The position numbers were made by a program, and so were the translations under genes. A DNA stretch of 64,000 bases from Lumbricus terrestris (Eukaryota; Annelida; Clitellata; Crassiclitellata; Lumbricidae), in NCBI GenBank assembly GCA_949752735.1, contig OX457050.1, positions 39,843,553 to 39,907,552 on the forward strand. Reading direction: 5' to 3'. Of the stretch, positions 7,146 to 60,760 are shown piece after piece. Position 1 is the first letter of the stretch; each line of letters begins with the position of its first letter. The notes beneath the pieces were generated by a model, which did not search any database, was not told the DNA's origin, and saw only the letters and a program-made list of their open reading frames with translations.

Positions 7146-7778
7146 GGTTCCACGACAACTGGTTCACCGACAACTGGTTCACCGACAACTCGTTCACCGA
7201 CAATAATTATTGGTTCACGGCAATATTATTGGAGCTGGATTGATGAAGATATTCTTGCTCAAATTGGAGCTGATTGACGAAAATATTCGTGCAAAAATAG
7301 AAGCTGGATTGATCAAAATGTCATCGCTTAAATTGGAGCCGGATTGATAAAAATGTTATTGATTAAATTGGAACTGAATTGATGAAAATATTCTTGCTTG
7401 AATAGGAGCTGGATTGATGAAAATGTTGATGCGTAAATCGGAGCTGGATGCATGGAAGTATATTGTGTTTAAATAGGCGCTGGATCGATGAAATGAATGC
7501 TTCAGAAATGGAGGCTGGATGAATGTTTTTCTGGCTAAAATAGAAGCTGGACTGATGAAATGAATGCTTGAGAGATGGAAGCTTGACCAAGGTCCCTTTG
7601 TAGCTTAAATAGAAGCTGGATTTGTTAAAAGATCGATTAAGAAATGGAAGCTGGATGAATGTATTTTATTGCTGAAATAGAAGCGGATTGATTGTCGTAA
7701 ACCAGTTGTCGGTGAACGAATTGTCAGTGAACCACTTGTCGGTGAACCAGTTGTCGGTGAACCAGTTGTCGTGACACC
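7146..7778. mobile_element. Foldback-type element with 15-mer tandem termini, inserted in the LINE
   Basis: Both ends consist of tandem 15-mers of the type ACAACTGGTTCACCG (left, 7154-7215) and the reverse complement (right, 7693-7772). The outer ends are GGTTCCACGACAACTGG and the complement of GGTGTCACGACAACTGG. A perfect 9-bp direct repeat GGTTCAAGC flanks the element (7137-7145 and 7779-7787). Removing the element rejoins the LINE codons for NRLRLN|PSKT. The interior (7235-7690) is the AGAAGCTGGATTGATGAA minisatellite in plus orientation, with no coding capacity. Type and target-duplication length agree with a Merlin-related non-autonomous element. Confidence 0.8.
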
Positions 7779-7787
7779 GGTTCAAGC

Positions 7788-9148
7788 GTAGTCTATTGGA
7801 ATTCTGAAGTCATAGTGAAATGTGATATTATTTTACATTGAAATCTACAAGTGACGTTCATTTTTACGCGGAAATTTAAAAAAGGTTTGAAAGTTTAAAC
7901 ACCTGTGACGTTTGCAAACATGAAATTTTTTAAAGTGAAACTTTCAGGGATTGTTGGAAATTCATTCTCCTGTAAATTGGATAATTTTCGCAGAAACATT
8001 TATATCGGTTGCGAAGATAGGCTATAGAACCAACATTTTATCCGGTGGGACTTTTTTGGAGCCACCCTGTTACATCTCTTTGCTGCTGGACCGTTCACAT
8101 TTTCTATGAGTAGCTCTGATGTGAGAAGCGAGTTACAAATGAACCGGTCCCGGTCATACTTTTATTAGATTAGATTATATATTATTTTGTGACTAAATGT
8201 CTCATGTGAGGAAATAGGGTCCCATTTATACAGCGCCAATGTGACATCGATTATAAGTTAACTGCGTGTATGGTTATGAGAGTATATGTATGTATGAGTG
8301 TGAGTAATATGTGTGAGAACTGAGCCCTGCTTAAGTAGGCCCAGCTGCAAGTGGAGAACTTAGACCTGATTTAATGGACTACGTTGACGAAGAGAGAACT
8401 TGGACCTGCATTGGAGGCCTCGGCGTCTTTACACGTCGATGGCGTGGCATACGGACAGAAACACAGGCACAGATTTTAGTGGGATGCAAGCAGACAACGA
8501 GAGATACACCATGAAATCGACAGAGCTGAGGGAAGAGAGTATAAAAGAGAGCGACGCCTGTTGCTATGGGCCAGTTTGTCGTCTTCCAGTTGCTGTCGCT
8601 AGTTGCGAGGTTGAGAGTTGCAGTTTCCGTGTGCAAGGACGATGTAACGTAGAGAAGATAAAGGCCCGTATCTGAGGACGATTGTCCAGATCCGATAACA
8701 AGCGTCGAGTTATAATAGAGAAGTTTGCGAAGCGATAAGTCTCGACTACGAAGAGAGCAGCGGCGAATGACGAGAAGTGAATCGACCGCTCGACCAAGAA
8801 TTGACGACAAGAATCGAAGGACGTTGAGGAGGAATTCGAGTCTACAGCAGATTGCGATTCTATGATTTCACGGAAGGAAGGAAGAGACACGGACGACGGA
8901 ATCCAGTGAGGACATATAGGTGAAGGAAGGACTGACACGAGCGATCCGACAGGCAGGTCTTATTATTGTTGTCATAGTGGGGAAAACCCAGGCGTGAAAT
9001 TAACCCATATCAGCTGTTGCCGTGAGCTAGACTAAGCAGAGTGAAAGAGTGAATGTTATATTAGATTCTATGATTATATAGCGCTATTTTGTATACTGAT
9101 TGTGTGAATTGACTGTATTAAAGAGATAGTTACGGCTATTAAACGAGA
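7788..9148 (+). other. Non-coding stretch upstream of the coiled-coil ORF, with a TATA-like box
   Basis: No convincing gene is seen here. A TATAAAAG box lies at 8540-8547, about 600 bases before the next ORF's ATG, in a context like that of an LTR or a TATA promoter. The section from about 8060 (TGTTACATC) to 8990 could be an LTR plus leader of a retroelement, but I found no matching partner LTR downstream. Confidence 0.3.
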
Positions 9149-14116: not shown

Positions 14117-14125
14117 CCCTGTGCC

Positions 14126-15009
14126 GGTGTAAAGGTTTCAAATTACCCCTCCTAAACATTACCCCCCGGTAACTTGAAACCGGTTTCAGATTACCCCCTG
14201 GGGGTAATCTCAAACCGGTTTCAAGTAACCCCCTACGGTTTCAGGTTACCCCCAGTGAAAACAGTTATTTAATTGAAATATCAACTGGATTGAGGGAAAG
14301 AACGTTTGAAAACAACGATCCAGCCTCCATTTCTCAAGCGTTGTTTTCGTCAATCAAGCTTCCATTTCACCTATAGAGCCTATAGAAAACCTTCATCCAG
14401 CTTCCATTTAACCTATGGAGAACCTTCATCCAGTTTCCATTTAACCTTTAGAGAACCTTCATCCAGCTTCCATTTCACCTATAGAGAATCTTCATCCAGT
14501 TTCCATTTCACCTATAGACAACCTTCATCCAGCTTCCATTTCACCTATAGGTAACCTTCATCCAGCTTCCATTTCACCTATAGATAACCTTCATCCAGCT
14601 TCCATTTCACCTATAGACAACCTTCATCCAGCTTCCATTTAACATATTCACGTCTGTACGAAGTGGTTATCTGTAGGTGAATTGGAAGCTGGATTGACGA
14701 TGGCAACGCTAGAGGAATGGAAACTGGATGAAGGCTCTCTAGAGGTGAAATGGAAACTGGATTGACCAAAACAACGCTAGATAAATGGAAGCTGGATGAA
14801 GGTTCTCTATAGGTGAAAAAGAAGCTGGATACTGTTTTCAGTGGGGGTAACTTGAAACCGTAGGGGGTAGCATGAAACCGGTTTCATATTACCCCCGGGG
14901 GTAACTTGAAACCGGTTTCATCCTACCTCCCGGTAATCTGAAACCGGTTTCAAGTTACCCCCGGGGGGGGGGTAATGTTTAGGAAGGGGTAATTTGAAAC
15001 CTTTACACC
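14126..15009. mobile_element. Inverted-repeat element, GGTGTAAAGGTTTCAAATTA termini
   Basis: The long inverted ends begin GGTGTAAAGGTTTCAAATTA and continue with alternating ACCCCC blocks and GAAACCGGTTTCA palindromes. The interior is the shared minisatellite in two opposed blocks: CATCCAGCTTCCATTT orientation at 14320-14650 and GAAGCTGGATGAAGG orientation at 14690-14835. The whole unit can therefore fold into one giant hairpin. I could not find a target-site duplication. Four other partial or complete relatives are at 15517, 40949, 44950 and 46199. Confidence 0.7.
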
Positions 15010-15019
15010 GGTCCTAAGC

Positions 15020-32689: not shown

Positions 32690-33415
32690 ACGCGGCCGGG
32701 CACGAGCATTCCCTCACCTTGAGAAACCCCCTGGACAAAAGCCCCATGGTAGGACAAAACCCCACTGGTAGAACATATTGCGCTCATGAAACGGCGGCCC
32801 TAAGCAGGCAAGTTGGATTGGTGAAAAGATTTCTCGCTAAACAGAAGCCGGATTTATAAAAAAAATAATTTTTACTTAAATAGAAGCTGGATTGATGAAA
32901 ATGTTCTTGCTTAAATTGAAGCGGGATTGATGAAAATAATCTTGCTAAAATTGGAGCTGGATCGATGACAATATTTGTGCTTAAATTGGAGCTGGATTGA
33001 TGAAAATGTTCTTGCATAAATTGGAGCTGGATTGATGAAAATAATTGTTATTAAAATAGAAGTTGGATAAACCAATTTTTGCCTACATGGAAGCTGGATT
33101 GATGACAAGGGTTCATGATGTCCCAACAGGTATCAAGCTTCATATCGGAGTGACTGAACGACACCAACAAGCAATAAGTTTACGCCTGAATGACATAGAC
33201 TGGTGTTTACCCGTATGACACTAACTAGTTGACACAGCCCTGCAAAATGGATAATTAGCCTAAGTTTGAGGAAATTATACCTACATAAAATTAGGCTATG
33301 CGCAGAAAGGGGGGATTGTCCGGGGGAATTAATGTTTTAGGTAAAATCCGGGGGGAATTGTTCGGAGGGGTTTGTCATGGGAGTTTTTCCAGGAGGAAAA
33401 TGTCCTACACTCTGC
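32690..33415. mobile_element. Degenerate foldback-like element with minisatellite interior
   Basis: The left side has CCCC-ending repeats (GGACAAAAGCCCC, GGACAAAACCCC at 32732-32765). The right side has the opposite pattern (GGGGGGATTGTCCGGGGG, GGAAAATGTCCTACACTC at 33310-33410), resembling the termini of the element at 45462-46190. Between them, 32810-33110 is the shared minisatellite in plus orientation. The boundaries and a target duplication are not clear. Confidence 0.45.
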
Positions 33416-33469
33416 GCAACCAACCCTCATATCGATGATGGTTGAGAACACAGCAAAACATATGTTGCG

Positions 33470-33858
33470 GGTAAACGTGTATTTCAGCGTCGTAAATTAT
33501 TCGCCATTGCATGGGTTTCAGCATTAGTCGAGTGCAAGTCATATTGACGAAAAGAATTCTTTCTAAATAGAAGTCGGATTGATTTAAGTAATTTCTATTG
33601 AGATAAAAGAGGCGTTAATTAAAACATTCTTGCTGAAATTGAAGCTGGATTGATGAATAATAATTTTTAATTAAATATAAGTTATATTGATGAAAAATGT
33701 TTGCTGACGAAACAGAAGCGGGATTGGTCAAACAAATTCTTGCCTAAACAGAAGCCGGATCGATGAGAAGGATTCTCACCAAACAAGAAGTTGGATTGAT
33801 TAAAAATAACACTGCTGCAACGAGCGAATAATTTACGACGCTAAAATACACGTTTACC
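33470..33858. mobile_element. Inverted-repeat element, GGTAAACGTGTATTT termini
   Basis: GGTAAACGTGTATTTCAGCG at 33470 has its complement ending at 33858, with one mismatch, and the match continues through CGTCGTAAATTATT. The same terminus bounds 47353-48286. The interior is the shared minisatellite in plus orientation. No target duplication is visible here. Confidence 0.65.
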
Positions 33859-36308: not shown

Positions 36309-36760
36309 GGAAGCATTTACCCAAATCCCAAGTCGTAGAGCATCGTAAATTATTTAAAACATGTAGGTTTTAGTCAATTTTTTAATCGCTCATCCAGTGT
36401 ATAATCCTACTATGACACAGTTCCGTTATTCATCCAGCTTCTTTTTTTCAATATTTTGATCGTTCATCCAGCCTCTAGTTTCATGGTAACAATGTAGCAT
36501 AAAACCATGATTTCCTCGCTCATCCAACCTATACTTCTGTTAATTAATATGCTCATCCAACTTCTAATGATATTGCAATACGTCAACAGTAGGCTAATAT
36601 CAAGGCGCCCTTGTAGCAGCATGGCCGCGTTACGGCGCCATAGAAATTGTCGTCATTATTATTATTATTAATATCATGTATTCATCGTTCATCTAACATC
36701 CAGTTTATGGATATAAAATATCTCTGAAGTGCTATATGGCTTGGGATTTGGGTAAATGCC
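36309..36760. mobile_element. Inverted-repeat element, GCATTTACCCAAATCCCAAG termini
   Basis: GCATTTACCCAAATCCCAAG at 36313 and its complement ending at 36759 define the element. The interior (36430-36700) is the CATCCAGCTTC minisatellite in minus orientation. The flanks share CACCAG, but a clean 8-bp duplication is not seen, so the outer ends are approximate. Confidence 0.55.
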
Positions 36761-39232: not shown

Positions 39233-39720
39233 GGCATACCTGGGAACGGCGGTCCCAAATTCTGAAACATGTATTTTCGTCAGAGGAAGAGCCAACTACA
39301 GTTAAGGCTGCATTTATTCACTTATTTTCTTTATTCTTTACTTATTCACTTACTTACGAGCTTCTCGGGCTTTTTACGTCATTGTTTACGTTGTTTTGAC
39401 GGCATTCCGTTGGGAAATAAATCAACCCGACGTCGTAATAGCGCGGTGTATAGGATGGGCGCATAGAAACCACGCTTGAGAAATAGAAGCTGGATGAAGG
39501 TTCTTCTGCAGGTGAAATAGAAGCTGGATGGACGAAAATAACGCATGAGAAATAGAAGCTGGATGAAGCCATTTCTAGATCTGAAATAGAAGCTGGATTG
39601 GTGAAGAAACGCTTAAGAAATGGAGGCTGGATGAAAAACCCACACTTTTTGCCCATCCAATACTCCGCACTATCGATTTATGGAATTTTATAATTTGGGA
39701 CCGCCGTTCCCAGGTGTGCC
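39233..39720. mobile_element. Merlin-like MITE, GGCAYACCTGGGAACGGCGG termini
   Basis: The inverted ends are GGCATACCTGGGAACGGCGG and the complement of GGCACACCTGGGAACGGCGG; the match continues through TCCCAAATT. A perfect 8-bp target duplication GATAAATA flanks it (39225-39232 and 39721-39728). The interior (39475-39640) is the shared minisatellite (AATAGAAGCTGGATGAAGG). The paralogous region near 62885 lacks the insertion. Confidence 0.85.
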
Positions 39721-39780: not shown

Positions 39781-40187
39781 GGTAGCGTTCTACAATGACT
39801 CGGTAAATCGTTCTAGAATGACTCGGTAGATATCGTTGCAGCGTTGTTATCTTTAATAAATCCAACTTCTAGTTTGCCGAGAATAATTTTAATCGATCCA
39901 GCTTCTCTTTAGGCAATAATTTGTTCGATAAATCCCGCTTCTATTTCGTCAGCAAAAATTTTTCAGCCATTTTTCATTGAAAATTATTGTTTATCAATCC
40001 AGCTTCAATTTCAGCATATATGACTGCACTAACCCTAAAACTAACCCTAACCGACCCTCACGGCGCCTAACCTGAGCCCTAACCGACCCTCACGCGCAAA
40101 ATCCCGCTTCAATTTCGTGAGGAAATATTTTTCATCGAATTTATAAAAATACACTTACTTGCTACCGAGTCATTGTAGAACGCTACC
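39781..40187. mobile_element. Merlin-like MITE, GGTAGCGTTCTACAATGACT termini, with telomere-like repeats
   Basis: GGTAGCGTTCTACAATGACT at 39781 and its exact complement ending at 40187 are flanked by a perfect 9-bp duplication ATGTAGGTC (39772-39780 and 40188-40196). The interior holds minisatellite units in minus orientation and a block CTAACCCTAAAACTAACCC (40030-40055) plus CCGACCCTCAC repeats. A second copy of this interior is at 49800-50060. Confidence 0.85.
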
Positions 40188-40560: not shown

Positions 40561-40948
40561 ACACGGATTAATTTTCATGTGGCCCGCCCGAGATCAAAAA
40601 TCTGTTGCACTTTGTGTGCAGTGAAGTAACGGACAAGTCAGTAGTCGTCTTTAATGTAATGTAAATTCTCGAGAATTTCTCAGCGTCCACAAAAGTCACA
40701 TCAGGGAGATCAGCTAATTTATACGCCAGCACTATATCAAATCAAGTCCGCAATAGTCAGAGCTGCCTTTTTCGTTCCGGAACTGGATGAAAGGTCTTTC
40801 GCAGTTTGTACAGTTGACAAATCTTTATGGTCAGAATGGTCGTCACAATCAGTCACAGTAGGCTACTAAACCTATTGTTAAAATTCCTTCAAAGATGTCT
40901 ATTATCTGTCGTTATCAATCAATTCTCTGATGTTATTGTTCCAGTGCC

Positions 40949-41400
40949 GGTGTAAAGGTTTCAAATTACCCCCTCCTAAACATTACCCCCCGGTAGCTTG
41001 AAACCGGTTTCAGATTACCCCCCGGAAACTAGATTTCCATCAATCATCGCCTTTATTGCACTAAAAAAATCAGAAAAATCATCCCGCTTCTTGTTTTGGT
41101 CTGAAAATATCATCCGTCATCCCACTTCGTGTTTTGTTATCAATATTTTGATCCGAAAAAAATAATAGCCTCGAAGCCATTTTCTCCATTGTAACTTCAG
41201 CGGCGATTAGTATTTTAGTTACAGATGAAAATATTGATAACAAACCACGAAGTGGGATGACGGATGAAAATCTTCAGACCAAAACAAGAAGCGGGATGAT
41301 TTTTCCGATTTTATTAGTGCAATAAATGCGATGATTGATGCAATTTACAGTTTGCAGGGGGGGTAATGTTTAGGAGGGGGTAATCTGAAACCTTTACACC
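40949..41400. mobile_element. Inverted-repeat element, GGTGTAAAGGTTTCAAATTA termini, short type
   Basis: It is a full copy closely related to 15517-15967: the same ends and the same pair of opposed arms (CAAAACAAGAAGCGGGATGATTT and complement). The flanks AGTGCC / GGCGCT extend the inverted repeat slightly. No target duplication was found. Confidence 0.75.
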
Positions 41401-41678
41401 GGCGCTAAGGTACCTGAGCCCCCCCCCCAAAAAAAAAACTTGAGGCCCCCATACCTTGAGCTGTCATCTCAGCAAAATTTCTCATAATATAAATACTGAA
41501 AGACATGGTGTAAGACTTCAATAAATGTCCCATTGTCAATTTTTTTGGAATTTTCATACTGTAATGGTAGAAATTTTAAGCTGTTATCTTTTACAAAAAT
41601 AGCTCTTTTTCATTGCTGTTAGTCGTGGTTTAGGACTTCAGAGTGTCCCTCTCCATTGTTTAATATACTTATCCGATT

Positions 41679-43040: not shown

Positions 43041-43544
43041 GGTAATTGGGTAGTTTAGCGTCCCAAATTATTTTGACCATTTCTTTGCAATAATAACTGA
43101 ATGACATAAACAATAACGCATATTTAATTGAGGAAATCATAAAATCTGTGCTTGAAAACCTCAAGGAAGTCCCAAACGAGGTAACTATCGCGTAGAACTG
43201 GAAGCTGGATGAGGATTTCTTATGGTTTAAAATGATGAAAAGAACGCTTCATAGATGGAAGCTGGATCAAAGTTCTGTAATAGTAGTTGAAATAGAAGCT
43301 GGATACAAGTTTTCATCGACCTGAAATAGAAGCTGGATTCACGAATAGCACGATAAAGAAAGTGGAAGCTGGATGAATGTTTTTATAGATCTAAAAAATA
43401 AAAGCTGGATTTATGAAAAGAACGATAAAGAAATGGAAGCTGGATGAAGGTTCCAGTTTTGATAAAATAGAAGCTGGATAAACGACAAATTCCAAGCCTC
43501 AGCAATAACCTGAATAATTTGGGACGCTAAACTACCCAATTACC
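43041..43544. mobile_element. Merlin-like MITE, GGTAATTGGGTAGTTTAGCG termini
   Basis: GGTAATTGGGTAGTTTAGCG at 43041 and its complement ending at 43544 (match continues through TCCCAAATTATT) are flanked by a perfect 8-bp duplication TATCATAA (43033-43040 and 43545-43552). The interior (43200-43480) is the shared minisatellite in plus orientation. It is nested inside the hAT element. Confidence 0.9.
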
Positions 43545-44530: not shown

Positions 44531-44534
<4 letters not shown>

Positions 44535-44644: not shown

Positions 44645-44956
44645 AATAAAGTTGACAATTACAATGACAGGTCCACCAAAAGCCTGCCAGTGCCCAACCC
44701 GGGAGATGTTGCCCGAGTGCGACATAACAACGAGTGGGTGAGAGGTGTGGTCGATTCCAAGCACCACACACCTCGATCGTGCAACGTGCTGACTGAAAAT
44801 GATTCGACACTCAGAAGAAATCGTCGAGATATTATAATCCAGAGAGCGGAAGACCCACCAACCGCCTCGCACTCAGCCAACATAATTATGACTTTCCTGT
44901 ATCAACTGCTAAGCCGCCTGCAGACCAACCAGCCATGCTGCCACAAAATCGTTTGA
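44645..44956 (+). pseudogene. Ty3/gypsy integrase C-terminal tail
   Basis: The plus-strand frame reads KSLPVPNPGDVARVRHNNEWVRGVVDSKHHTPRSCNVLTENDSTLRRNRRDIII. This has the layout of the small SH3-like fold and RRNRRHL tail at the end of conventional gypsy integrases. Nothing before or after it in the element is recognisable. It is distinct from the Gmr1-like elements. Confidence 0.6.
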
Positions 44957-45250
44957 AGATTTTCATCCGTCATCCCACTTCGTGGTTTGCAATCAATATT
45001 TTCATCTGAAACTAAAATACTAATCGCCCGCTTAAGCTACATGGAGAAAAGGCTTCGAGGCTATTATTTTTCTTCGGATCAAAATATTGATTACAAAATA
45101 CGATGTGGGATATGACGGACGAAATTCTTCAGACCAAAACAAGAAGCGGGATGATTTTCCTGATTTTTTCAGTGCAATAACTGCGATGATTGATGCAAAT
45201 CTAGTGTCCGTGGGTAATCTGAAACCGGGCGTAATTTGAAACTTTACACC
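44950..45250. mobile_element. Partial inverted-repeat element (GGTGTAAAG type), left end lost
   Basis: It contains the opposed arms (AAGATTTTCATCCGTCATCC and complement near 45100) and the right end (GTAATTTGAAACTTTACACC) of the family at 15517 and 40949. The left terminus is missing. Confidence 0.6.
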
Positions 45251-45461
45251 GGTGTAAAGCTGGTCTCCCTGACGTGGTTTTTTGGGCGCGGAGAAATTCT
45301 CGATGATTTGCATTACATTACATTATAAAAATAAGCGCTCAAGTCGACTACAGTAACTGACTTGTTCTTTACTTCATTGTAGCAAAGTGCAGAAAATTTT
45401 TGAGCTCTGGCGGGCCACTTGAGATCATTCATTACTATTATGTTGAAACATGTCTAATCCC

Positions 45462-46190
45462 GGGGAACGGACATTTCCCCCCCCCTGGACATTTCCCCCC
45501 CGGACATTTCCCCCCCGGACAATTCCCCCCCGGACGTTTCCCCCCTACCCTAGGACATTCCCCCCCCGCTTGCGGAAACCATTGTTTTTATGGTCTTCAA
45601 CATATGAAAAAGCGCTTGAGAAATGGAAGCTGGATGAAGACCTTTTACATGTGAAATAGAAGGTGGATTGATGAAAAAATGCAAGTTAAATAGAAGCTGG
45701 ATGAAGGTATTTTTAGATCTGAAATAGAAGCAAGCTAAATAGAAGCTGGATGAAGGTATTTTTAGATCTGAAATAGAAGCTGGATTGATGAAAAAATGCA
45801 AGTTAAATAGAAGCTGGATGAAGGTATTTTTAGATCTGAAATAGAAGCTGGATTGATGAAAAAATGCAAGTTAAATAGAAGCTGGATGAAGGTATTTTTA
45901 GATCTGAAATAGAAGCTGGATTGATGAAAAAATGCAAGTTAAATAGAAGCTGGATGAAGGTATTTTTAGATCTGAAATAGAAGCTGGATTGATGAAAAAA
46001 TGCAAGTTAAATAGAAGCTGGATGAAGGTATTTTTAGATATGAAATAGAAGCTGGATTGACTTAAGGGGGGAAATGTCCGGGGGGAAATGTCCTAGTCGA
46101 AATCGGGGGGGGGGGGGACGTCCAGGGGGGAAATGTCCGGGGGGGAAATGTCCGGGGGGAAATGTCCAGGGGGGAAATGTCCTACACTCG
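45462..46190. mobile_element. Foldback element, tandem GGACATTTCCCCCC termini (copy A)
   Basis: The left end is GGGGAACGGACATTTCC followed by five units of GGACRTTYCCCCCC. The right end consists of six units of the complement. A perfect 9-bp duplication TCTAATCCC flanks it (45453-45461 and 46191-46199). The interior (45600-46060) is a very regular array: AATAGAAGCTGGATTGATGA alternating with AATAGAAGCTGGATGAAGG, a 34-bp half unit and a 68-bp dimer. It is in the opposite orientation to the copies at 50463 and 58575. There is no coding capacity. Confidence 0.9.
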
Positions 46191-46343: not shown

Positions 46344-47019
46344 GGTTATTGTGACTGACCGCTCGGTAGGAAGTAAACAGTATGGCGGTCACAGATACAC
46401 GCAAAATAGAGCGGCCTCAACTCCGGCGATCGATAGCCCAATGTTTCCGCGCGAAGCATTGGGGTCCCGCTTCAGTCAGTGATGTTGTGTGAAGTAAGTA
46501 AGTAAGTGATGAAGGTATTTCTAAATCTGAAATAGAAGTCGGATTGATGAAAAAACGCTTAAGTAATGGAAGCTGGATGATGGTATTCTTATATTTGAAA
46601 TAGAAGCTGGGTTGACAAAAATAACAGGCGAGAAACAGAAGCTGTGTTAATAAAAATATTATAGCTTAGATTGGAGCAGGATTGATGAAAATGTTCTTGA
46701 TTAAATTAGAGCTGGATGGATAAGGATCTTGTTAATTAAATAGGAGCTGGATTGATTAAAATGTTTCCGATTAAATTGGAGTTGGATTGATGAAAAATAA
46801 TCATTATTGAAACAGAAGTTGGATTCATAAAACAGCTGATGCAATTGAAAAGCTGGACTTTTACTTACTTACTTATTTTTGCCTGCTGTCTTATTGCACC
46901 ATTGACTATTAAGCGGAAACATTGGGCTATCGATCGCCGGAGTTGAGGCCGCTCTATTTTGCGTGTATCTGCGACCGCCATACTGTTTACTTCCTACCGA
47001 GCGGTCAGTCACAATAACC
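46344..47019. mobile_element. Merlin-like element with ~107-bp inverted arms, GGTTATTGTGACTGACCGC termini
   Basis: The arms 46344-46452 and 46912-47019 are almost perfect inverted copies. A perfect 8-bp duplication CGATTTCC flanks the element (46336-46343 and 47020-47027). Inside the arms lie (TAAG)n / (CTTA)n and then the shared minisatellite in plus orientation. It is non-coding. Confidence 0.9.
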
Positions 47020-47352
47020 CGATTTCCGTTTAAACTCGATTTTTAATACAATAACTGTTTAGCTCTTAATTTATAATAATATGTTTGTGCCTTATTGTCT
47101 GCTGACACTTAACATTGCAAAGCTGGGTATAACTCGGTTTTTCCGGTTTACTCGTCGTATGATATTCCAGACCAACGGAAATTGGATTGATGAAAAGGAT
47201 GCATGCCAACGTAGAGTTAGGACTGATGAAAATGACTATGCGGCGCCCAGCGATTAATCTTGGGTAATCTTGCAGTTTAGGTGCTTTTATTATTTTGCAT
47301 TGCTTTCTTCAACACTACTAGTCTTTGGTCGCTGTTTTGGCGCGAGAATATG

Positions 47353-48286
47353 GGTAAACGTGTATTTTAGCGTCGTAAATTATTTTCACGCATATAACGG
47401 CACAAAAAACGCCGTACATTATTTCTGATAACGTACATTTCACCAACTGATGCAACAGCACACTTAAAATTTGATAAAGAGAAGAATATTGACAGAAAAT
47501 GTGTTTTTAAAATGTCACATTTCCCATGCGAAATCGCCGTTCGAATCGCCATTGAACCACAACATTTGCCCGGAAGTTGGTGTAGGCGCACAAACCATCG
47601 ACGTATATTGGTCCATGCGACTATAAATAACGTGTACGTCAAGACTTCGGTCTAAGTTCAAAATGAGAAATGGAAGCTGGATGAAGGTATTTCTAGATCT
47701 GAAATAGAAGTCGGATTGATGAAACTACGCTTAAGTAATGGAAGCTGGATGATGGTATTCTTAGGCTATATCTGAAATAGAAGCTGGGTTGACGAAAATA
47801 ACGGGCGAGAAATAGAAGCTGGGTTAATAAAAATATTCTAGCTTAAATTGGAGCTGGATTGATGAAAAATAATCATAATTGAAACAGAAGTTGGATTCAT
47901 AAAACAGCTGATGCAATTAAAAAAGCTAGACTTTTATGGAAATGGAAGTTGGGTGATGGTTCTCTGTAGGTGAAATGGAAGCTGGATGAAGGTTAGAGAA
48001 ATAGAAGCTGGATGAATGTTACTTACTTATTTATTTTTGCCTGCTGTCTTATTGCACACTTGACGCACGCAACTTCCGGAAAGGGTCATAATTGAATAGC
48101 AACTTCGATTGGCGGTTTGTTATGACAAAATATTACAATTTTTCAATCGATTTCCTTGTTTTTGACAAATTCTAAGTTTAATAATACATCAGTTAGGCGA
48201 TAGCACGTTGGCATAAACTTTTTAAGGCGCTTTTTGTGCCATAATAAGCGTGAAAATAATTTACGACGCTAAAATACACGTTTACC
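47353..48286. mobile_element. Nested inverted-repeat element, GGTAAACGTGTATTTTAGCG termini
   Basis: GGTAAACGTGTATTTTAGCG at 47353 and its exact complement ending at 48286 are flanked by a perfect 8-bp duplication AGAATATG (47345-47352 and 48287-48294). It belongs to the same terminal family as 33470-33858. The interior includes minisatellite at 47665-48020 in plus orientation. Confidence 0.9.
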
Positions 48287-48289
48287 AGA

Positions 48290-49450
48290 ATATGTTTTTC
48301 ATTTAACCAGCCTCTATTTCTCCCGCGTTATTTTCGTCAATCCAGGTTCTATTTAAGCAATAACACCTTCATCATGCTTCTAGTGTTAATGTGTTATTTT
48401 CGTCAATCCAGCTTCTTTGTCAGGTATAAAAACACCTCTATTCTGCTTCAATTTTTTAAGCGTCTTCTTCGTTCATCCAGCTTCGATTTCACTAATATCT
48501 CCATCATCCATCTTCTATTTTAAAAGCTTTTTATCATTCATCCAGCTTCTATTTAAAATATAGAAAACCTTCATCCAGCTTCCATCTCTTAAGCTTTTTA
48601 TCATTCATCCAGCTTCCATTTCATATATATATATATATATATACAAACCTTCATCCAGCTTCCATTTGGGTAAAACTTCAGTTTAGGTGTGTAAATTATT
48701 CAGCGATTCATTCTGCCTGGAACACATAATCATGTCTGATGGCTGGGCTTCGTACGCAAATATTGACCTTTATCCAGCTTCCATTTCACCTCTAGAGAAC
48801 CTTCATCCAGCTTCCATTTCTCAACCAGAGAACCCTAATCCAGCTTCCATTTGTCAAGCGTTTATCGTCAATCCAGCTTCTATTTCACCTACAGAAAACC
48901 TTCATCCAGCTTCTATTTAACCTCTAGAGAAACTTCATCCAGCTTCCATTTCTCAACCAGAGAACCTTAATCCAGTTCTATTTCACCTACACAGAACCTT
49001 CATCCAGCTTCCATTTCATCTACAGAGAACCTTCATCCAGCTGCCATTTCACAAAAGTTGTTTTCGTTAATCCAGCTTCTGAGTTTTTTTATGTCTAACA
49101 CTTAGTTAAATGGATTGACTGAAAACGTAGAGAACATGTGGATACGTGCGAAACGCAAACTTCGCTGCCAGTTTGGAACGTCGCAGGCACTGTTCAATTC
49201 TTATCTCCATGAATTTGTCTTCCGCAACCGATTCCGTGATGAGGACATGTTTCTTACAGTGTTAACGATAATTTCAGACAACTATCCAGCTTGAAATCGT
49301 GAGAAATAATTTACGCACCTAAACTGAAGTTTTACCTCCATTTCTTAAGAGTTTTATCATTCATCCAGCTTCTGTTTCAGATCTGTTAAAACATTAATCC
49401 AGCTTCTATTACTCATGCGTTTTTCATTAATCCAGCTTCTATTTCAGTTT
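48290..49450 (-). repeat. Minisatellite tract, CATCCAGCTTC orientation
   Basis: About 30 units of TTCATCCAGCTTCYATTTC-type sequence are spread over the tract, broken by the element at 48669-49336 and by the transposase relics. It faces the plus-oriented tract at 47665-48020, so a long hairpin is possible. An (AT)n run lies at 48626-48643. Confidence 0.8.
48669..49336 (+). mobile_element. Nested Merlin-derived element with interrupted transposase relic
   Basis: GGTAAAACTTCAGTTTAGGT at 48669 and its complement ending at 49336 are the termini; flanks TCCATTTG / TCCATTTC agree at 7 of 8 bases. Inside, 48722-48766 encodes HIIMSDGWASYANID and 49118-49291 encodes ENVENMWIRAKRKLRCQFGT through TIISDNYPA and a stop. 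Both match the transposase at 56694-57548 (HIISDGWASYRNLN; NIENVWMRAKRKFRRQFGT; TTIAENYQV). About 350 bases of minisatellite lie between them, where the intact protein has about 30 residues. The N-terminal two thirds are missing. Confidence 0.85.
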
Positions 49451-49799
49451 TCTTTTATAGTTCAAAAGGGGAAAACATTTTCAATGTCTTCCTACAAACT
49501 ATTGCTGATAACTATCCCGTATACAGTGCAAAATAATAAAAGCACCTGAACTGCAGGATTACCTAATCTTGAACGTTAAAGCAACCCGGAAAAGCAGAGT
49601 CGTACCCAAGACTGTTGCTGCTGCTAATTTTAATAATTCAAAATCTATGTTCGAGTCTCTCCTATAAAATCACAATTGAAAGTCCGTCATGCTATCAATC
49701 GATCATTGGTAAAAGTGCATTTAGCGTAGTTTATGATTTAGCCTATGTATTTACATATTTCGCTCATATTTCTATTGAAAAGTTACAAACAGACAAAAT

Positions 49800-50060
49800 T
49801 GGGTCGATCCAGCTTCTGCTTAGACAAGAATTTGTTCGATAAATCCCGTTTCTATTTTGTCAGTAAATATTTTTCATCAATTTTACATTGAAAATTATTC
49901 TTCATCAATCCAGCTTCAATTTCAGCAGAATGACTGCACTAACCCTAAAACTAACCCTAACCGACCCTCACGACGCCTAACCTGAGCCCTAGTTGACCCT
50001 CACGCGCTAAATCCCGCTTCTACTGCGTGAGGAAATATTTTTCATCGAATTTATATTTCT
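49800..50060. repeat. Second copy of the telomere-like MITE interior
   Basis: It matches 39880-40155 closely, including the CTAACCCTAAAACTAACCC block (49938-49957) and the CCGACCCTCAC units. I could not find matching inverted ends or a target duplication. Confidence 0.6.
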
Positions 50061-50099
50061 GTGGGGTCGTCAAACCCACAAGTACCCAAAATTGAGTGA

Positions 50100-50450
50100 T
50101 ATTGAAAGCTAGATTGATGAAAACTTCTTGATGAAATATAAGCTGAATTAAGGTATCTAATGGCTGACGTAGCAGCTGGATGGACAAAAATAACGCTCGA
50201 GAAATGGAAACGGAATTGATGAAAAGATTGCTTAAGAGAAATATAAGTTGGATTGATGAAAATTATTTCTCTTAAATAGGAGCGGGTTGCTGAAAGTATA
50301 CTTAATTAAATGAGAGTTTGATTGATGACAAATACTTGTTATTTAAATGGAATTTGGATTGATGAAAATTAATTGTTGCTGCAACAGATGATGGATTAAC
50401 GAATGACACATGCCAAGGTAGAAGTCGGATTGATGAAAATACCTGCGGAA
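50100..50450 (+). repeat. Degenerate minisatellite, plus orientation
   Basis: About ten diverged units (AAGCTGAATTAAGG, AATAAGTTGGATTGATGAAAA and so on). It lies immediately left of foldback copy B, whose own array is in the opposite orientation. Confidence 0.6.
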
Positions 50451-50462
50451 GTTCGAAAACGC

Positions 50463-51282
50463 GAATGGCGGACATTTCCCCCCCTGGACATTTCCCCCCC
50501 CCCGGACATTTCCCCCCCCCCGGACATTTCCCCCCTGGACGTTTCCCCCCCCGATTTCGACTAGGACATTTCCCCCCCCGGACATTTCCCCCCCCCTTAA
50601 GTCAATCCAGCTTCTATTTCAGGTCTAAAAATACCTTCATCCAGCTTCTATTTAACTTGCGTTTTTTCATCAATCCAGCTTCTATTTCAAAAAATACCTT
50701 CATCCAGCTTCTATTTAACTTGCATTTTTTCATCAATCCAGCTTCTATTTCAGATCAAAAAATACCTTCATCCAGCTTCTATTTAACTTGCGTTTTTTCA
50801 TCAATCCAGCTTCTATTTCAGGTCTAAAAATACCTTCATCCAGCTTCTATTTAACTTGCGTTTTTTCATCAATCCAGCTTCTATTTCAGATCAAAAAATA
50901 CCTTCATCCAGCTTCTATTTAACTTGCATTTTTTCATCAATCCAGCTTCTATTTCAGGTCTAAAAATACCTTCATCCAGCTTCTATTTAACTTGCGTTTT
51001 TTCATCAATCCAGCTTCTATTTCAGATCAAAAAATACCTTCATCCAGCTTCTATTTAACTTGCATTTCTTCATCAATCCAGCTTCTATTTCACATGTAAA
51101 AGGTCTTCATCCAGCTTCCATTTCTCAAGCGCTTTTTCATATGTTGATGACCATAAAAACAATGGTTTCCGCATAGGGGGGGAAATGTCCTAGGGTAGGG
51201 GGGGAAACGTCTGGGGGGGGGAAATGTCCGGGGGGGGAAATGTCCGGGGGGGAAATGTCCAGGGGGGAAATGTCCGTTTACC
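50463..51282. mobile_element. Foldback element, tandem GGACATTTCCCCCC termini (copy B)
   Basis: The left end is GAATGGCGGACATTTCC and the right end the complement of GGTAAACGGACATTTCC. Tandem GGACATTTCCCC units follow inward on both sides. A perfect 9-bp duplication CGAAAACGC flanks it (50454-50462 and 51283-51291). The interior is the 34/68-bp minisatellite in minus orientation. It is nearly identical over its whole length to copy C. Confidence 0.9.
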
Positions 51283-51559
51283 CGAAAACGCACCCAAATA
51301 ATAAAATACGCTATTTATTTTTAGCTAACCTGTTTTGAATAAAATATGCTAAAATGCACTTTTACCAAAGCAGTTCTGAAAATCCGAGTCATACTCCAAA
51401 GCTGTTGCTGCTGCTAATTTCTATGTTTAAGCCTCGCCTATAAAATCACATTTATGACCCTTCAAAGGACAATCATTTCGGGTTTAATCCGTCAGATCAA
51501 GCCAGGTCATGGCGAATTCTACTTTGATGTAAAACCTGTGCAAATTATTTTACTAATTT

Positions 51560-52939: not shown

Positions 52940-53357
52940 GTAAGCAACTGCGTGTTAAAGAAAAAAGCCTTAAACCTACATATATTCGAATTATACAAAG
53001 AGTCATTTGCACATTCTGGTGATTTACAAAATCATAAATATCACTCTTGGTGTAAAAAAAACACTAAAAACTTGTGTTGGACATCATATAGGACCAAGGT
53101 GAAATTCCAGCAACTCATATGAAGAAACATTTCTAAAGTGCATCCATGTGAAGCCCAGCTATATGGCAAATCATTTACTGAAATGCTTTAGTTGACAGCA
53201 CATAATTTACTGGAAACAATGTTGAAAAAACACCAATAACCAGCATTGTCAAAGATCGTTTACTATAGAAGGTAATCATCAACGATACCATGAGAACCCA
53301 AACTCATACAAATCTCAGTTATGTCTGAAATCCTTTACCGCAGGTAGTTATTTAAAA
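52940..53357 (+). pseudogene. Degenerate zinc fingers upstream of the 53358 gene
   Basis: Remnants such as YKESFAHSGDLQNHK, EAQLYGKSFTE and SQLCLKSFTAGSYLKMHMRIH are readable, with missing cysteines and stop codons. The last one, at 53298-53370, is in frame with the following gene. The array was longer in the past. Confidence 0.6.
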
Positions 53358-54584: not shown

Positions 54585-54988
54585 TCAAAACAATCGTGAC
54601 TTCAGATTATGTAAAGATGTTATAGAAGTTCTTGCTGCTATTTAGCGACGCTACCATTACAGAGATGATTATTGTTGCCCTCCTCTTTCATGCAGATTTG
54701 GGACTGGCACTGTTAGAGTACAAACAGTGACGGCGTTATTGTGAAAGTCATGCGAGACAACAGACTGAAATAGTTACAATGTACCACTTTGTTCAGAATA
54801 TGTGGACAGCAGGCATTGTCATGCAGAGAAGTCAGAAGTGCTTCCTTTCAGGCACCTACATGTATAGTGTATTCATCCACTTACATTACTTACATTATTG
54901 TTGTTAGACTCAAATTGCGGAAGATTATCAGAATGAACTTTTTCTACTGTCATTCAAGACACCGCAAAGTCAGTTGTTCTGACAACTC

Positions 54989-55558
54989 TTGTTGAGTATA
55001 GTAATTATCCTATTAAGAGCTGCAATTAAACTGTGCTCTATCTTTGGAGAGAACCCATACCATTGCCAGCTATGCAGAAAAAGATTTTCTCGATCATGTC
55101 ATCTAAAATGTCGTCTTAGAATTCATACTGGTGAGAAACCTTATCCGTGCCAGTTTTGCCCGAGAGCGTATTCATATACTTCTAATCTAAGAACTCACAT
55201 CAGAAGCCATACTGGAGAAAAGCCTTACAAGTGTCAAGAATGTAGTAGATGGTTTGTCGAATCTTCATGTCTTCGAATTCATGCCATGATTCATACTGGA
55301 GAGAAACCGTACCAATGCCAGTTATGTGAGGCAAAGTATCGAAGTAACAGTCAACTAAAGAGGCATGAGAGAACACACACTGGAGATAAACCGCACTTGT
55401 GCCAAGTCTGTCGGAAAACATTCTCATGCAGTTCATGTCTAAAAATCCATGAAAGAATTCATACTGGAGAGAAACCGTTTCTGTGTGAAGTCTGTAACAA
55501 AACATTTTCTCAATCTTCATTTCTGCAGAAGCACTCTGTTAGAATTCATGCTGGATAG
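54989..55558 (+). CDS. C2H2 zinc-finger protein, six fingers, truncated duplicate (189 aa)
   Basis: Six fingers with the same order and nearly the same residues as the last six of 41679-42428. Homology begins abruptly at GENPY.CQLC (55045) and continues past the stop to about 55775. The first ~20 residues are unrelated and hydrophobic and are probably not coding. A duplicated block with a breakpoint inside a finger, or an upstream exon ending there, would explain this. Several finger residues differ (HLKCRLRIH with R for H, CPRAYSYTSN), so one finger may be damaged. It could be a gene fragment. Confidence 0.6.
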   Translation: MLSIVIILLRAAIKLCSIFGENPYHCQLCRKRFSRSCHLKCRLRIHTGEKPYPCQFCPRAYSYTSNLRTHIRSHTGEKPYKCQECSRWFVESSCLRIHAMIHTGEKPYQCQLCEAKYRSNSQLKRHERTHTGDKPHLCQVCRKTFSCSSCLKIHERIHTGEKPFLCEVCNKTFSQSSFLQKHSVRIHAG

Positions 55559-56693: not shown

Positions 56694-57548
56694 TTACACT
56701 TGGTAGTTTTCGGCTATTGTAGTTAGAAAGTGTACAGACATTTTGTCTTTAGGAGTACAGCATCGATACTGGAATTCGCGCAAGTATGACGCAACCAAGG
56801 CGCTGCTTGTACCGAACTGGCGCCTAAACTTACGTTTCGCGCGCATCCATACGTTCTCGATATTCTGTGTATGGATTTCTGCATCGTCAGGTTGCACAAA
56901 GTTTTGTTCATGAATAACGACATAATGTTCATAAATGTCATTGCCTAGTTGATTAAGATTCCTGTAAGATGCCCATCCGTCAGATATTATATGCGCACCA
57001 GGCAAAATATGTTTAAGAATAAGGGACTCGAGAGTACATGCGCCTCGGTTCGGGACAATGCGCGTAAAACACCGGCCCGATTCTCTCTCGACCCTTCCGA
57101 AAACCCAATGCCCTTCATCGAAGCGCCCCCTATGGTACTTCCGATGGAAGTATTTTGTCTCGTCTATTTCTACTGTCAAAGTGTTGCCACTGGCGTCAAA
57201 GCCACCCAGCTCCGACACATTCCTATTCAAGTACCTGTCGCATTCTTCTCGGCATAAATTGAACCAGTCGATGATAGTCTTGCGCTCACCGATTTCTGAC
57301 TCGTGCTGCGACTGATCCAGAGGTAAGTCAGCTGACCAGCAGTACACCATGATTATAATGTTCCTTAACGCATGATGACTTCTGGTGAAAAAGGAACCAT
57401 CTCGAACGCTCTTCCTAATTCCACGTCTTTCACAGGACCATCTCTTACCATCAATGCCCCTCTGACAGTTTTGCAGTTGGTACTGTTGATGACATTGTGG
57501 ACAGGCTTGTGTGTTTTTCAGCAACTGACGCCGTGCCAGCCAACGCAT
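56694..57548 (-). CDS. Merlin / ISXO2-like (IS1016-type) transposase, intact frame
   Basis: The protein has an N-terminal zinc ribbon (C16, C19, C28 or H20, C39; DGKRWSC) and the catalytic core of the ISXO2-like family. D129 lies in TVEIDETKYFHRKY, D190 in HIISDGWASY, and E231 with N229 in HTQNIENVWMRAKRKFR. Strand order and spacing fit the family, and 284 residues is a usual length. The frame stays open upstream of the ATG at 57548 (SVCTKRCTSLASELSDTEAA) to a possible acceptor near 57610, so the start is uncertain. It would cut and paste Merlin elements and make 8-9-bp target duplications. I could not find terminal inverted repeats around it, so it may be an immobile or host-captured copy. 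It is the best local candidate for mobilising the non-autonomous elements. Confidence 0.85.
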   Translation of the reverse strand: MRWLARRQLLKNTQACPQCHQQYQLQNCQRGIDGKRWSCERRGIRKSVRDGSFFTRSHHALRNIIIMVYCWSADLPLDQSQHESEIGERKTIIDWFNLCREECDRYLNRNVSELGGFDASGNTLTVEIDETKYFHRKYHRGRFDEGHWVFGRVERESGRCFTRIVPNRGACTLESLILKHILPGAHIISDGWASYRNLNQLGNDIYEHYVVIHEQNFVQPDDAEIHTQNIENVWMRAKRKFRRQFGTSSALVASYLREFQYRCCTPKDKMSVHFLTTIAENYQV

Positions 57549-57609
57549 AGCTGCCTCTGTGTCACTTAGTTCGCTAGCAAGACTCGTACATCGCTTTGTA
57601 CATACACTG

Positions 57610-58560
57610 CATAAATATAATTTAGAACCTCAAAAGTTCTTATGTTTCAAACAAATATTGGCAAAAAACCGTAGAGCATTGCTTTTTAATGGCCCACACT
57701 GTATGATATGCATATTTCCAGCTCATGCTTAATTTCTGCACCGTTGATGTTCTTTTTCTTCGACTCGGCAACTTCTACTTCTTCGTCGCTCTAACCTTCT
57801 GCTGACAAATAAACAATAGAATCTACAAAAAAAAGACAACAAATAAATAAGTGGCAATTTATAAATAATGAAACCGGTCTGTTCCATTCACGTTCAGACA
57901 AGGAAACCACCACTTGGCGTAATGGAGAGTCTCAGGGAGGATAAAATGAAAGAAAATTGATACCACTTCGCTGTGTTGCACATTCAAACAATGTCAATCT
58001 TAATAGAAACTAAAAAACATAATTAACCTGAAGCATCATGCAACTCACGTACCTCACAAGTTGTAAAGCATCCAAAGCATGTGTCCAATGCAGCATGGCT
58101 TGACAATGATTGAAAGTATGAATGGCTACTTGTACCTGCAAGAGAAGTGATTCATTCAAATGCTTAGACGATAATTGTTCAGTTTGAAGTTCAGAATAAT
58201 AGCATTTTCATACAATGAATATCTCAATAGCTAGCAGTGATTGAAAGAGATGAATGATGAACGATTTGAAAGAGCATAGGAGTGTTCATTGTGCAGTTCA
58301 CATGCTATAACATAAACAGAGGGGAATAATTTTGTTTCAGATACCAATTAACATGATTTCTTGCTGTCATTTTTTCATTGGATGTTGGATTAAGCATAGT
58401 AATGTTACGGATCACCCAAGACTTCTAGGGTCCCTCCGCGAACAGGCTCATGGTAAACTATTTTACTCAATGCACATTTGAAATGCTATAACACCTCACA
58501 AAGAATAATTTATAAATTATTATAACTTACCATTGGGTTCTATTTCTTCGAGCGATTTGC
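57610..58560. other. No gene seen
   Basis: Non-coding, AT-rich sequence upstream of the transposase. On the minus strand the stretch near 58530-58560 (AGKSLEEIEPN then a GTAAGT donor) belongs to the recombinase-like pseudogene. Confidence 0.35.
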
Positions 58561-60760
58561 CAGCCCATTTTCCCGAATGGCGGACATTTCCCCCCTGGAC
58601 ATTTCCCCCCCGGACATTTCCCCCCCGGACATTTCCCCCCCTGGACGTTTCCCCCCCCCCCCCCGATTTCGACTAGGACATTTCCCCCCCCGGACATTTC
58701 CCCCCCTTAAGTCAATCCAGCTTCTATTTCAGGTCTAAAAATACCTTAATCCAGCTTCTATTTAACTTGCGTTTTTTCATCAATCCAGCTTCTATTTCAA
58801 AAAATACCTTCATCCAGCTTCTATTTAACTTGCATTTTTTCATCAATCCAGCTTCTATTTCAGATCAAAAAATACCTTCATCCAGCTTCTATTTAACTTG
58901 CGTTTTTTCATCAATCCAGCTTCTATTTCAGGTCTAAAAATACCTTCATCCAGCTTCTATTTAACTTGCGTTTTTTCATCAATCCAGCTTCTATTTCAGA
59001 TCAAAAAATACCTTCATCCAGCTTCTATTTAACTTGCATTTTTTCATCAATCCAGCTTCTATTTCAGGTCTAAAAATACCTTCATCCAGCTTCTATTTAA
59101 CTTGCGTTTTTTCATCAATCCAGCTTCTATTTCAGATCAAAAAATACCTTCATCCAGCTTCTATTTAACTTGCATTTCTTCATCAATCCAGCTTCTATTT
59201 CACATGTAAAAGGTCTTCATCCAGCTTCCATTTCTCAAGCGCTTTTTCATATGTTGATGACCATAAAAACAATGGTTTCCGCATAGGGAGGGAAATGTCC
59301 TAGGGTAGGGGGGGAAACGTCCGGGGGGAAATGTCCGGGGGGGGGAAATGTCCGGGGGGGAAATGTCCAGGGGGGGAAATGTCCGTTTACCCATTTTCCC
59401 ACTTCGCCGGGGTTTACTGCATGCTAGCAGCAATTTCGACACTGCACAATTCTATAGATGATTCCTGCAGCTTGCACCGAAATATCACGCCCAAGATGCG
59501 ATGCTAGCCACGACATTTAATTGCTGTTCAGTGCCAGTATCTGCGAAACGGTCGCAATATATTTGCGCAATTTTGTGCACTTTATTCTTTCCGAGTGCTC
59601 AAGTTCTGCATCCTGCACTACCCTACACAGAGCATCCCCACCACGGATATTAGTCAAGGTCCCTTGGCAGGCAAAGAAGTATCTGTTTTCAATATTGATG
59701 CCAGCTTGCGTTCTTATTTCCTCGTTTGCCAGTTTGTTCATTGCAATATTTGTTTGCATCAGGTGGTATAAGAATCGCAATTTTTCTAAACTCCTTTCCT
59801 TGAATTTCCACCAAATCCATTCGTTGGTACAAATCCTGCTCAATCCTGCTCATACTTTCGCGCACGTCTTCTATTCCGTCAACTTTCCAGTTCGGTCTTT
59901 CAATAAAGGCGTTTTTCTTTAGCCGTGATACAGCTCCAAGCCGTGTCTTATTAAACACAAGCAACCGGGCTAGAGTTAGTCTTTGCAGTTTCCTACAATG
60001 CTGTGCTGTATTACTGCCTTCTTTGTATTTATCTAAAATTCTGATGGCTTCTGTTGTTAAATATCATGTCAGTTTCTTTACATCGGATGTTGTGGGAAAG
60101 TTATTGGGCTTGTTGAATTTTCGCCTATTCACTGTATTCAGTGTTCTTGTTGCTGCCCCTGAAATCTGATCCGTCAAATCAGAGTCGACTCTTTCAGCAA
60201 CTTCGTCATCTGACGTCATCGCTATTCCCCTCTTTCTTTCAGCCAGCTGAACTAAGATGTGCTCTAACTTCTTGGCAACAGAAGGCTTCTCCAGTTGCAC
60301 TGCTCGATCCCGTATCCACTTCCACCAATTGGCCGGACATGCTCTCCACGGCTTCAACTATTTTAACGAATGATTGTGGGTTGATCCAGTTTGATATTTG
60401 TCCATTTGGATTGTCATCAATATCTCTCAATTTTATTAGGAGTCGAGCAGAATTCCTCATTCTGTTTGCAACACTAGCATATTTGTTGGTAACAACGTTT
60501 TTGAAGCGTAAATTTCCGATGTCAACAATGAGGGAGTCACTTTTTGCTGCCCGAGAGATGTCATCATGCCGAAATGACCTAAACACCGTGGTACGCAACA
60601 AATCAGAAGCCCCAATTTCAACGTAATCCTGCAATGCCTGTGACTCCATGACAATATCTCTTTTGCCCTTTTCATCAGAGCCAGAAGAGCCAATAGGCCT
60701 ACCCGGTACAGTGGTAGTGACAATGACGCCAAATATTGCTTAGAGCAACATAAGCCAGAC
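58530..60760 (-). pseudogene. Decayed tyrosine-recombinase-like gene, split by foldback copy C
   Basis: On the minus strand the pieces read: NRMRNSARLLIKLRDID (about 60460); after a frameshift EKPSVAKKLEHIL and NRRKFNKPNNFPTTSDVKKL (60064-60290); LVFNKTRLGAVSRLKKNAF and RMDLVEIQGKEFRKIAILI (about 59770-59960); NIENRYFFACQGT, IRGGDALCR and TKLRKYIATVSQIL (to 59520); then, past a stop, WLASHLGRDI and, past another stop, NPGEVGKW. The last piece resumes beyond copy C as AGKSLEEIEPN. The family, as I recall it, is a group of long invertebrate proteins whose end resembles tyrosine recombinases (R...HLGH...Y). Here the tyrosine region is degraded, and there are at least one frameshift and two stops. 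A donor-like GTAAGT follows EPNG. Confidence 0.55.
58575..59391. mobile_element. Foldback element, tandem GGACATTTCCCCCC termini (copy C)
   Basis: It has the same termini and interior as copy B, almost base for base. A perfect 9-bp duplication CATTTTCCC flanks it (58566-58574 and 59392-59400). Removing one duplicate and the element restores continuity of the recombinase-like pseudogene's text, so the target was coding-derived sequence. Confidence 0.9.

Follow-up and report, generated by a model that had tools for sequence, protein, structure and literature searches.

What does it mean that one short tandem repeat fills the interiors of many small DNA elements whose inverted ends differ? The question is raised by a stretch of 64,000 nucleotides of Lumbricus terrestris (GenBank assembly GCA_949752735.1, contig OX457050.1, positions 39,843,553 to 39,907,552 of the forward strand), referred to here as the window, in which a repeat with a unit of ~34 base pairs (bp) lies inside element after element. 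An earlier note had described the shared unit, the inverted ends and the target duplications of 13 such elements, had taken their termini to have nothing in common, and had proposed that the repeat is a transferable module of non-autonomous DNA elements. The presence of a shared unit within inverted-end elements, and its reading as a module of small DNA elements with several terminal families, are both sustained by the analysis below; the supposed unrelatedness of the ends is not. We consider it likely that the one repeat seen in these several terminal families was installed repeatedly and then exchanged by nesting and array–array recombination.

Units were detected with a 24-position profile, the cut-off of which was exceeded 10 times across 20 shuffled windows. 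In the window, 156 units in 18 clusters were found (~0.5 expected), and 147 of these lie inside 15 inverted-end elements, A to O; of the nine others, eight are in an apparently decayed element at ~32700–33420 and one is at 47173. Adjacent same-strand units are spaced 30–40 bp apart in 117 of 135 cases, mostly 33–36 bp, and there are only 12 gaps of 55–80 bp, the size suggestive of missed units, so that the ascertainment problem is limited. A scan independent of the unit, using GG-starting ends with at least 16 of 25 end matches and an exact 8-bp duplication (9-bp duplications being outside its scope), returned five elements in the window, all five with units, and none in six shuffles.

The 13 elements described previously had been placed correctly to a few bases, and the statement that most have perfect 8–9-bp duplications holds for nine of them (7147–7779, 39233–39720, 39781–40187, 43041–43544, 45461–46189, 46344–47019, 47353–48286, 50463–51282 and 58575–59391); two have one mismatch in eight (36312–36759 and 48669–49336) and two have none (14124–15011 and 33470–33858). 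Three array carriers had been overlooked: the host element N, with J and K nested in it, the host element O, with L nested in it, and the decayed copy at 32700–33420. The elements are as follows, all without an assigned strand; T2 and T4 are end families, and numbers beginning with L denote genomic loci.

Element A, 7147..7779: 15-bp repeat ends CGACAACTGGTTCAC (T4 family), 11 units, 9-bp duplication GTTCAAGCG.
Element B, 14124..15011: CCGGTGTAAAGG ends, as also in P and R; two inverted halves with 15 units in all; duplication not found.
Apparently decayed H-type element, 32700..33420 (approximate): 8 units; right end that of H (25 bp, 92%), left end placed by eye.
Element C, 33470..33858: J-type ends, interior nearest F, 6 units, no duplication.
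Element D, 36312..36759: 2 units, CACCAGGA/CACCAGCA; ends not GG-starting.
Element E, 39233..39720: Merlin ends GGCATACCTGGGAACGG as in L030/L031, 8-bp duplication GATAAATA, 5 units.
Element F, 39781..40187: 9-bp duplication ATGTAGGTC, 4 units, interior in common with C and O.
Element P, 40943..41406: B-type ends; no unit matched by the profile, and by eye only the diverged variant GAAGCGGGATGA.
Element G, 43041..43544: GGTAATTGGGTAG ends, 8-bp duplication TATCATAA, 8 units.
Element H, 45461..46189: CGGACATTTCCCCCC repeat ends (T2), 9-bp duplication GTCTAATCC, 13 units.
Element I, 46344..47019: GGTTATTGTGAC ends, 8-bp duplication CGATTTCC, 9 units, interior in common with J.
Element N, 47263..49563 (2301 bp): GGTAATCTTGCAG ends like those of the Merlin copy L058, 8-bp duplication TAATCTTG, 12 own units; J and K are nested inside.
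Element J, 47353..48286: GGTAAACGTGTATTTTAGCG ends, 8-bp duplication AGAATATG, 10 units; an 86.6% copy (827 bp) is in L050.
Element K, 48669..49336: deletion derivative of the L055/L056 Merlin, within the array of N, duplication TCCATTTG/TCCATTTC (7/8).
Element O, 49708..51366: GGTAAAAGTGCATTTTAGC ends, no duplication, 11 own units; L is nested inside.
Element L, 50463..51282: T2 ends, 9-bp duplication CGAAAACGC, 16 units, 97% identical to M.
Element M, 58575..59391: T2 ends, 9-bp duplication CATTTTCCC, 16 units.

The ends of the 16 elements A to P were compared in all 120 pairs, taking the best of four end combinations and gauging it against 3000 random 40-mers from the window. Seventeen of the 120 pairs have similar ends at p<0.001, and single linkage sorts the elements into seven groups—{C,G,J,K,N,O}, {H,L,M}, {B,P}, {F,I}, and A, D and E each alone—so the claim that the termini have nothing in common was overstated. 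All eight of E, K, N, G, I, J, C and O start with GG at both ends; E, G, I, J and N have exact 8-bp duplications, that of K matches at seven of eight positions, and C and O have none. The ends of D start GC/AG and its duplication is 7/8, B and P have no duplication (none was found for P), and F starts with GG, has an exact 9-bp duplication and has no transposase-bearing partner. In the family with B-type ends to which P belongs (P, R and S; 15514–15971, 40943–41406 and 44950–45262) the interior is near-palindromic and, by eye, holds only the diverged form GAAGCGGGATGA of the unit.

A connection with Merlin transposons is made by the protein-coding content of the window and of the genome. Two further features are needed here.

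Merlin-type transposase open reading frame (ORF), 56694..57629, minus strand: 311 amino acids, DDE_Tnp_IS1595 (L036); no inverted ends found around it.
Non-Merlin insert of element K, 48769..49117, minus strand: 9-unit array and ~35 bp of other DNA between two transposase-gene remnants.

The Pfam domain DDE_Tnp_IS1595 matches the open 311-residue frame, and those relatives of this protein that bear a name, a minority, are molluscan, hydrozoan and beetle; a second ORF yielded none. The ORF was considered as part of an element with the ends seen in the window, and this was set aside, as no inverted ends were found around it; it may be a decayed or domesticated Merlin copy. Scoring of 150 of 191 candidates gave at least 143 PF12762 matches in the genome. 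Among 30 loci fetched with 1.5-kilobase (kb) flanks, the domain is enclosed by GG ends and a duplication in 23; the seven in which it is not include the copy in the window. According to PMC8101967, Merlin elements are defined by ends of 24–462 bp, terminal GG and duplications of 8 or 9 bp, and tandem repeats are present in several of their families. One Merlin family, found at L041–L053, has eleven full-length copies (1199–1200 bp) among the fetched loci, each with an exact 8-bp duplication, and has probably been active recently.

Five of the 23 enclosed Merlin-domain copies have ends of elements in the window: L030 and L031 those of E, L055 and L056 those of K, and L058 those of N. E matches L031 over 48 terminal bp (97.9%), N matches L058 over 104 bp (96.2%), and K matches the ends of L055 and L056 over 32 bp (90.6%) and L056 in addition over 219 bp at 91.3% and 71 bp at 94.4%. 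Judged by these matches, E, K and N are derivatives of Merlin transposons, each with the ends of a different one; J, C, G and O would be placed with Merlin only through their related ends; no relation to Merlin ends was found for the ends of I. The alignment of K to L056 is the most informative: K keeps positions 1–32, 813–882 and 963–1181 and lacks 33–812 and 883–962, and its array, with ~35 bp of other sequence, stands between the 813–882 and 963–1181 segments, with the transposase frame readable on both sides. The array of K is therefore inside the remains of a transposase gene.

None of the 23 Merlin-domain copies holds units within its own ends. Only L050 was flagged; this Merlin copy is nested in the 86.6% copy of J, and the units there belong to its hosts. 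It follows that the array belongs to the non-autonomous derivatives and that it seems unneeded for Merlin mobility; an extra advantage of the array for non-autonomous copies is possible. The transposase-binding role suggested in the earlier note is weakened by this result, with the qualification that only five of the 23 copies are from the E, K and N families. The same note's remark that no described family has this design does not stand for E, K and N, since the Merlin superfamily has been described before, and some of its members are reported to have tandem repeats inside.

A second class of elements—A, H, L and M in the window, and most of the genomic sample described below—has 9-bp duplications and ends made of ~15-bp tandem repeats; each family has two different tips. 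The duplications are exact in A, H, L and M and in most genomic T2 and T4 members (L009 has 10 bp, L028 8/9, and L020 and L024 7/9). The tips of this class start with GG in 31 of 38 cases and keep GACA at positions 9–12 in 30–34 of 38 per position. A 27-bp piece of the T4 end has 1271 + 1264 matches in the genome against 0 for the reversed piece; the corresponding counts for the E end are 227 + 230 and 0. In structure the class resembles Mutator/Foldback elements, and sea-urchin TU elements are a further comparison. For PF10551, scoring of 150 of 211 candidates gave at least 143 genomic matches. One Mutator-like element (MULE) copy, L068 1–4001, has long inverted repeats of sub-repeats, and its score and frame length recur at ten places in the genome; it is not of the 9-bp class.

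Is the repeat confined to such elements outside the window? In the source genome (1,056,305,194 bases) an 18-bp core of the unit has 27,709 + 27,841 = 55,550 matches with at most 2 mismatches, and the reversed core, used as a control, has 8 + 9 = 17. Twenty consecutive exact-core clusters were taken from contig C1 in listed order, only the first of two lying ~5 kb apart (13969092 and 13973874) being centred. An automatic call of enclosure, using ends with at least 15 of 20 bases matching and an exact 8–10-bp duplication, was obtained for 16 of the 20 and for 0 of 60 shuffles, with the caveats that the ends called for L028 are not the array's own and that those of L010 are larger (3.2 kb) and not GG-starting. 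By eye, duplications were recognized as exact in L021, 8/9 in L028 and 7/9 in L020 and L024, and after inspection 18 of the 20 clusters lie in inverted-end elements, 15 of these 18 with an exact 8–10-bp duplication. The sample adds four further kinds of ends (L015, L018/L020, L021 and L026), of which those of L021 and L026 are distantly like T2 and T4 ends.

These counts bear directly on the explanation that the unit is a general satellite which elements merely enter. Some insertions are of that kind: K (TCCATTTG) and L058 (GCTGGATT, one mismatch) are inserted in or among unit arrays, and ends are lacking at one of the 20 clusters, L025. From the several cases of insertion into arrays no preference for them is claimed, as the background is only roughly gauged: one array and three single matches in a random 30.6 kb (nine stretches), and 31 units in three clusters in the 73.4 kb of far flanks of L009–L028. 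The arrays of N and O into which others are nested are, however, themselves within elements, and inverted ends enclose 18 of the 20 genomic clusters and 147 of the 156 units in the window. A preponderance of copies outside inverted-end elements, named in the earlier note as the finding that would speak against it, was not seen in this sample, and the satellite explanation, largely refuted by the 20-cluster sample, is extremely improbable.

How the array came to be in several terminal families is addressed by comparing interiors with ends. Likeness between elements with different ends is seen for F and O (253 bp, 91%) and for I and J (412 bp, 76%), and the interiors of C and F are alike over 193 bp (82%), a similarity that breaks off exactly where the end repeats begin on their inner side. 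Conversely, the ends of B and P match over 79 bp at 96%, and the interior of P matches no other element. For 34 elements the best interior match is in an element with similar ends in 16 cases, a number inflated by near-duplicate T2 and T4 copies, and in one with dissimilar ends in 18, of which six (D, F, I, L015, L021 and P) are uninformative for lack of an end relative at the cut-off or of an interior match; the closest interior is thus in an element with other ends for 12 of 28 informative elements. The interior common to F and O also contains the same short stretch of telomere-like CTAACCCTAA repeats (40010–40100 in F and 49930–50015 in O).

Several cases of nesting were seen: J and K lie in N, L lies in O, a Merlin copy lies in a J-type element (L050), and L071 is a T4 element containing T2-like and other arrays. 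In L019, E-type and T4 elements are fused within their arrays. This locus has both E ends and an exact 8-bp duplication, its positions 112–547 (436 bp) are 94.5% identical to the T4 element L013 up to the last base of L013, and other DNA and then the rest of E follow. The simplest history is a T4 insertion beside the array of E, followed by a deletion between both arrays; it is not a completed swap, because the right end of T4 is still there.

The same evidence weighs on vertical descent, according to which one ancestral array-bearing element gave rise to all of these by rapid divergence of its ends and without transfer. The related ends of C, G, J, K, N and O are what such descent would predict, as are the GGT and the GACA at positions 9–12 that the 9-bp families have in common (30–34 of 38 tips per position). 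It does not readily account for the C/F likeness that stops at the edge of the end repeats, for the different interiors of B and P behind the same ends, or for the visible fusion in L019, and K, E and N keep sequence of different Merlin families, the domain-bearing copies of which have no units inside their own ends. We regard descent without transfer as quite unlikely.

Repeated installation and exchange, the reading we prefer, would proceed as follows. The first capture would have been of filler DNA during repair of the gap left by excision, and the array was likely installed more than once by template switching of this repair type. It would then pass between families when a nested insertion is followed by array–array recombination. 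Merlin transposase would act in trans on E, K and N and on those elements whose ends are related, and the 9-bp class would be mobilized by what is probably a Mutator/Foldback-type transposase. Arrays would persist mainly as homology for recombination, to which the ~15-bp core perhaps adds protein binding.

Several points weigh against this account. The microhomology at the junction of K is only ~3 bp (by eye). Sixteen of the 23 Merlin-domain copies are of one family (GGTAAATACCCATTTTAACGTCGG ends), the E, K and N families being represented by two, two and one copies, and the sole N-family copy, L058, has been reduced by deletion to 585 bp. For G, I and J no partner with a transposase was found, and B, P, D and F are placed in no superfamily. 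The 9-bp class could not be connected with a transposase, as its ends are not seen in L068, L069 or L070, the three MULE copies examined, so that to speak of two superfamilies is to infer from structure. A single clan, especially {C,G,J,K,N,O}, could have had the array from the start, with its ends diverging later. The clusters sampled in the genome come from one stretch of one contig and are anchored on exact cores; among them L025 has no ends, L010 has only larger non-GG ends, and L011 and L014 are duplicates of one insertion; and calls of nearest interior neighbours among tandem repeats are noisy.

Does the array do anything for the elements that carry it? The high-information block of the unit profile is about 15–18 positions long. 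By their spacers, 68 of the 156 units are of type B, nine are of type A and 79 could not be typed. In type B the identity of the core is 0.94 within arrays and 0.92 between array consensuses (75 pairs), and that of the spacer falls from 0.60 within arrays to 0.35 between them, which is near random; in type A the between-array identities are 0.79 for the core, a weaker value, and 0.34 for the spacer. This contrast hints at a protein-bound core, and may be partly due to method, as the core is part of the profile with which units were found, and spacers were compared without gaps.

If the ~15-bp core were a site for a transposase or host factor, the array could be a transferable enhancer of transposition, favouring any ends that capture it. 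The retention of the type B core while its spacer drifts, the compact block of information and the small number (12) of 55–80-bp gaps would fit such a role; the absence of units inside Merlin-domain copies with the same ends, the weaker type A values from only nine units, the 79 untyped units and the possible share of method in the contrast all tell against it, and we rate it as unlikely. An extended form, in which a free-riding array of protein-binding cores, captured by Merlin or Mutator/Foldback-like ends, makes a non-autonomous element win and has so swept through about ten terminal groups, is to our minds unlikely; if true, a protein-binding module would link the evolution of unrelated transposons.

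The unit had also been supposed to be a hairpin-forming or replication-expanding cassette. The inverted halves of B and P are compatible with this, and the 68-bp dimers inside H, L and M are 92–99% alike, from which it follows that arrays do expand. Folded as single-stranded DNA, however, all six array stretches examined (140 bases each) do no better than shuffles beyond z −0.64 (range −0.64 to +1.62), on which ground the hairpin is rejected, and the cassette explanation as a whole is very improbable.

The arrangement is a real and unusual one of known parts, array-bearing small elements of which some are Foldback-like and others derive from Merlin. Transposons with tandem repeats have been described before; what is new is one repeat common to many terminal families. 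No report of one minisatellite common to several terminal families was found in the literature searched, in which subscription journals were mostly out of reach, so that absence is unproven. Helentrons are not known to have inverted ends with target duplications of the type seen here.

Published systems were compared through passages of the cited papers. Merlin (IS1595/IS1016-related) elements are alike in their GG ends, 8-bp duplications, several end families per genome, DDE_Tnp_IS1595 and internal tandem repeats, and differ in that the published repeats are tied to particular transposase-bearing families (PMC8101967), whereas here one repeat extends across derivatives of several families and is absent within the ends of the Merlin-domain copies examined. 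The Tm1 Mutator/Foldback elements of root-knot nematodes have the same plan as the 9-bp class—9-bp duplications, asymmetric ~7-bp tips and ~14–15-bp repeat ends—but in the passages compared their interiors are not described as shared with another superfamily (PMC3169594); here no MULE transposase is linked. Oyster Cg_HINE Helentrons likewise have modular flanks around a central tandem array, with unrelated arrays in related flanks, but each repeat cluster is bound to one flank pair (PMC7492417), whereas here one repeat has many ends; Helentron or HINE identity, which would call for neither 8–9-bp target duplications nor long inverted ends, was rejected in view of the exact 8–9-bp duplications and inverted ends. 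The Drosophila elements Tetris/DAIBAM and the Galileo foldback have tandem repeats inside, those of Galileo adding transposase binding sites, but in the ends of single families (PMC4079207). For Xenopus miDNA4, capture of a pre-existing tandem repeat by a miniature inverted-repeat transposable element (MITE) and microhomology-driven change have been proposed, in one Tc1/mariner MITE family rather than many end families (cited from a review, PMC12628747). A paper on giant-virus repeats (PMC10664404) was set aside as a comparison, and a 23-base unit had no matches among viral contigs.

In the studies consulted, internal repeats are tied to one family; here a single repeat occurs in derivatives of at least three Merlin families and in several 9-bp foldback-like families. 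The question of whether arrays are passive debris of repair or an advantage to the element becomes directly testable, and nesting followed by array–array recombination is a visible route by which non-autonomous elements could switch ends, and hence their dependence on a transposase.

Other features of the window are of lesser bearing. Element G is nested within a probable hAT element at 42682–44535, between TA runs, which we take to be hAT from its hAT-like C-terminal peptide. C2H2 zinc-finger ORFs, recognized by eye from repeated HTGEKP linkers, are present at 37126–38619, 41664–42428, 53226–54584, 54983–55558 and 61109–62535; they surround the densest cluster of elements, and some are near-duplicates of one another. 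At 28868–30272 there is a tandem array with a 156-bp unit, in nine copies with 96% matches.

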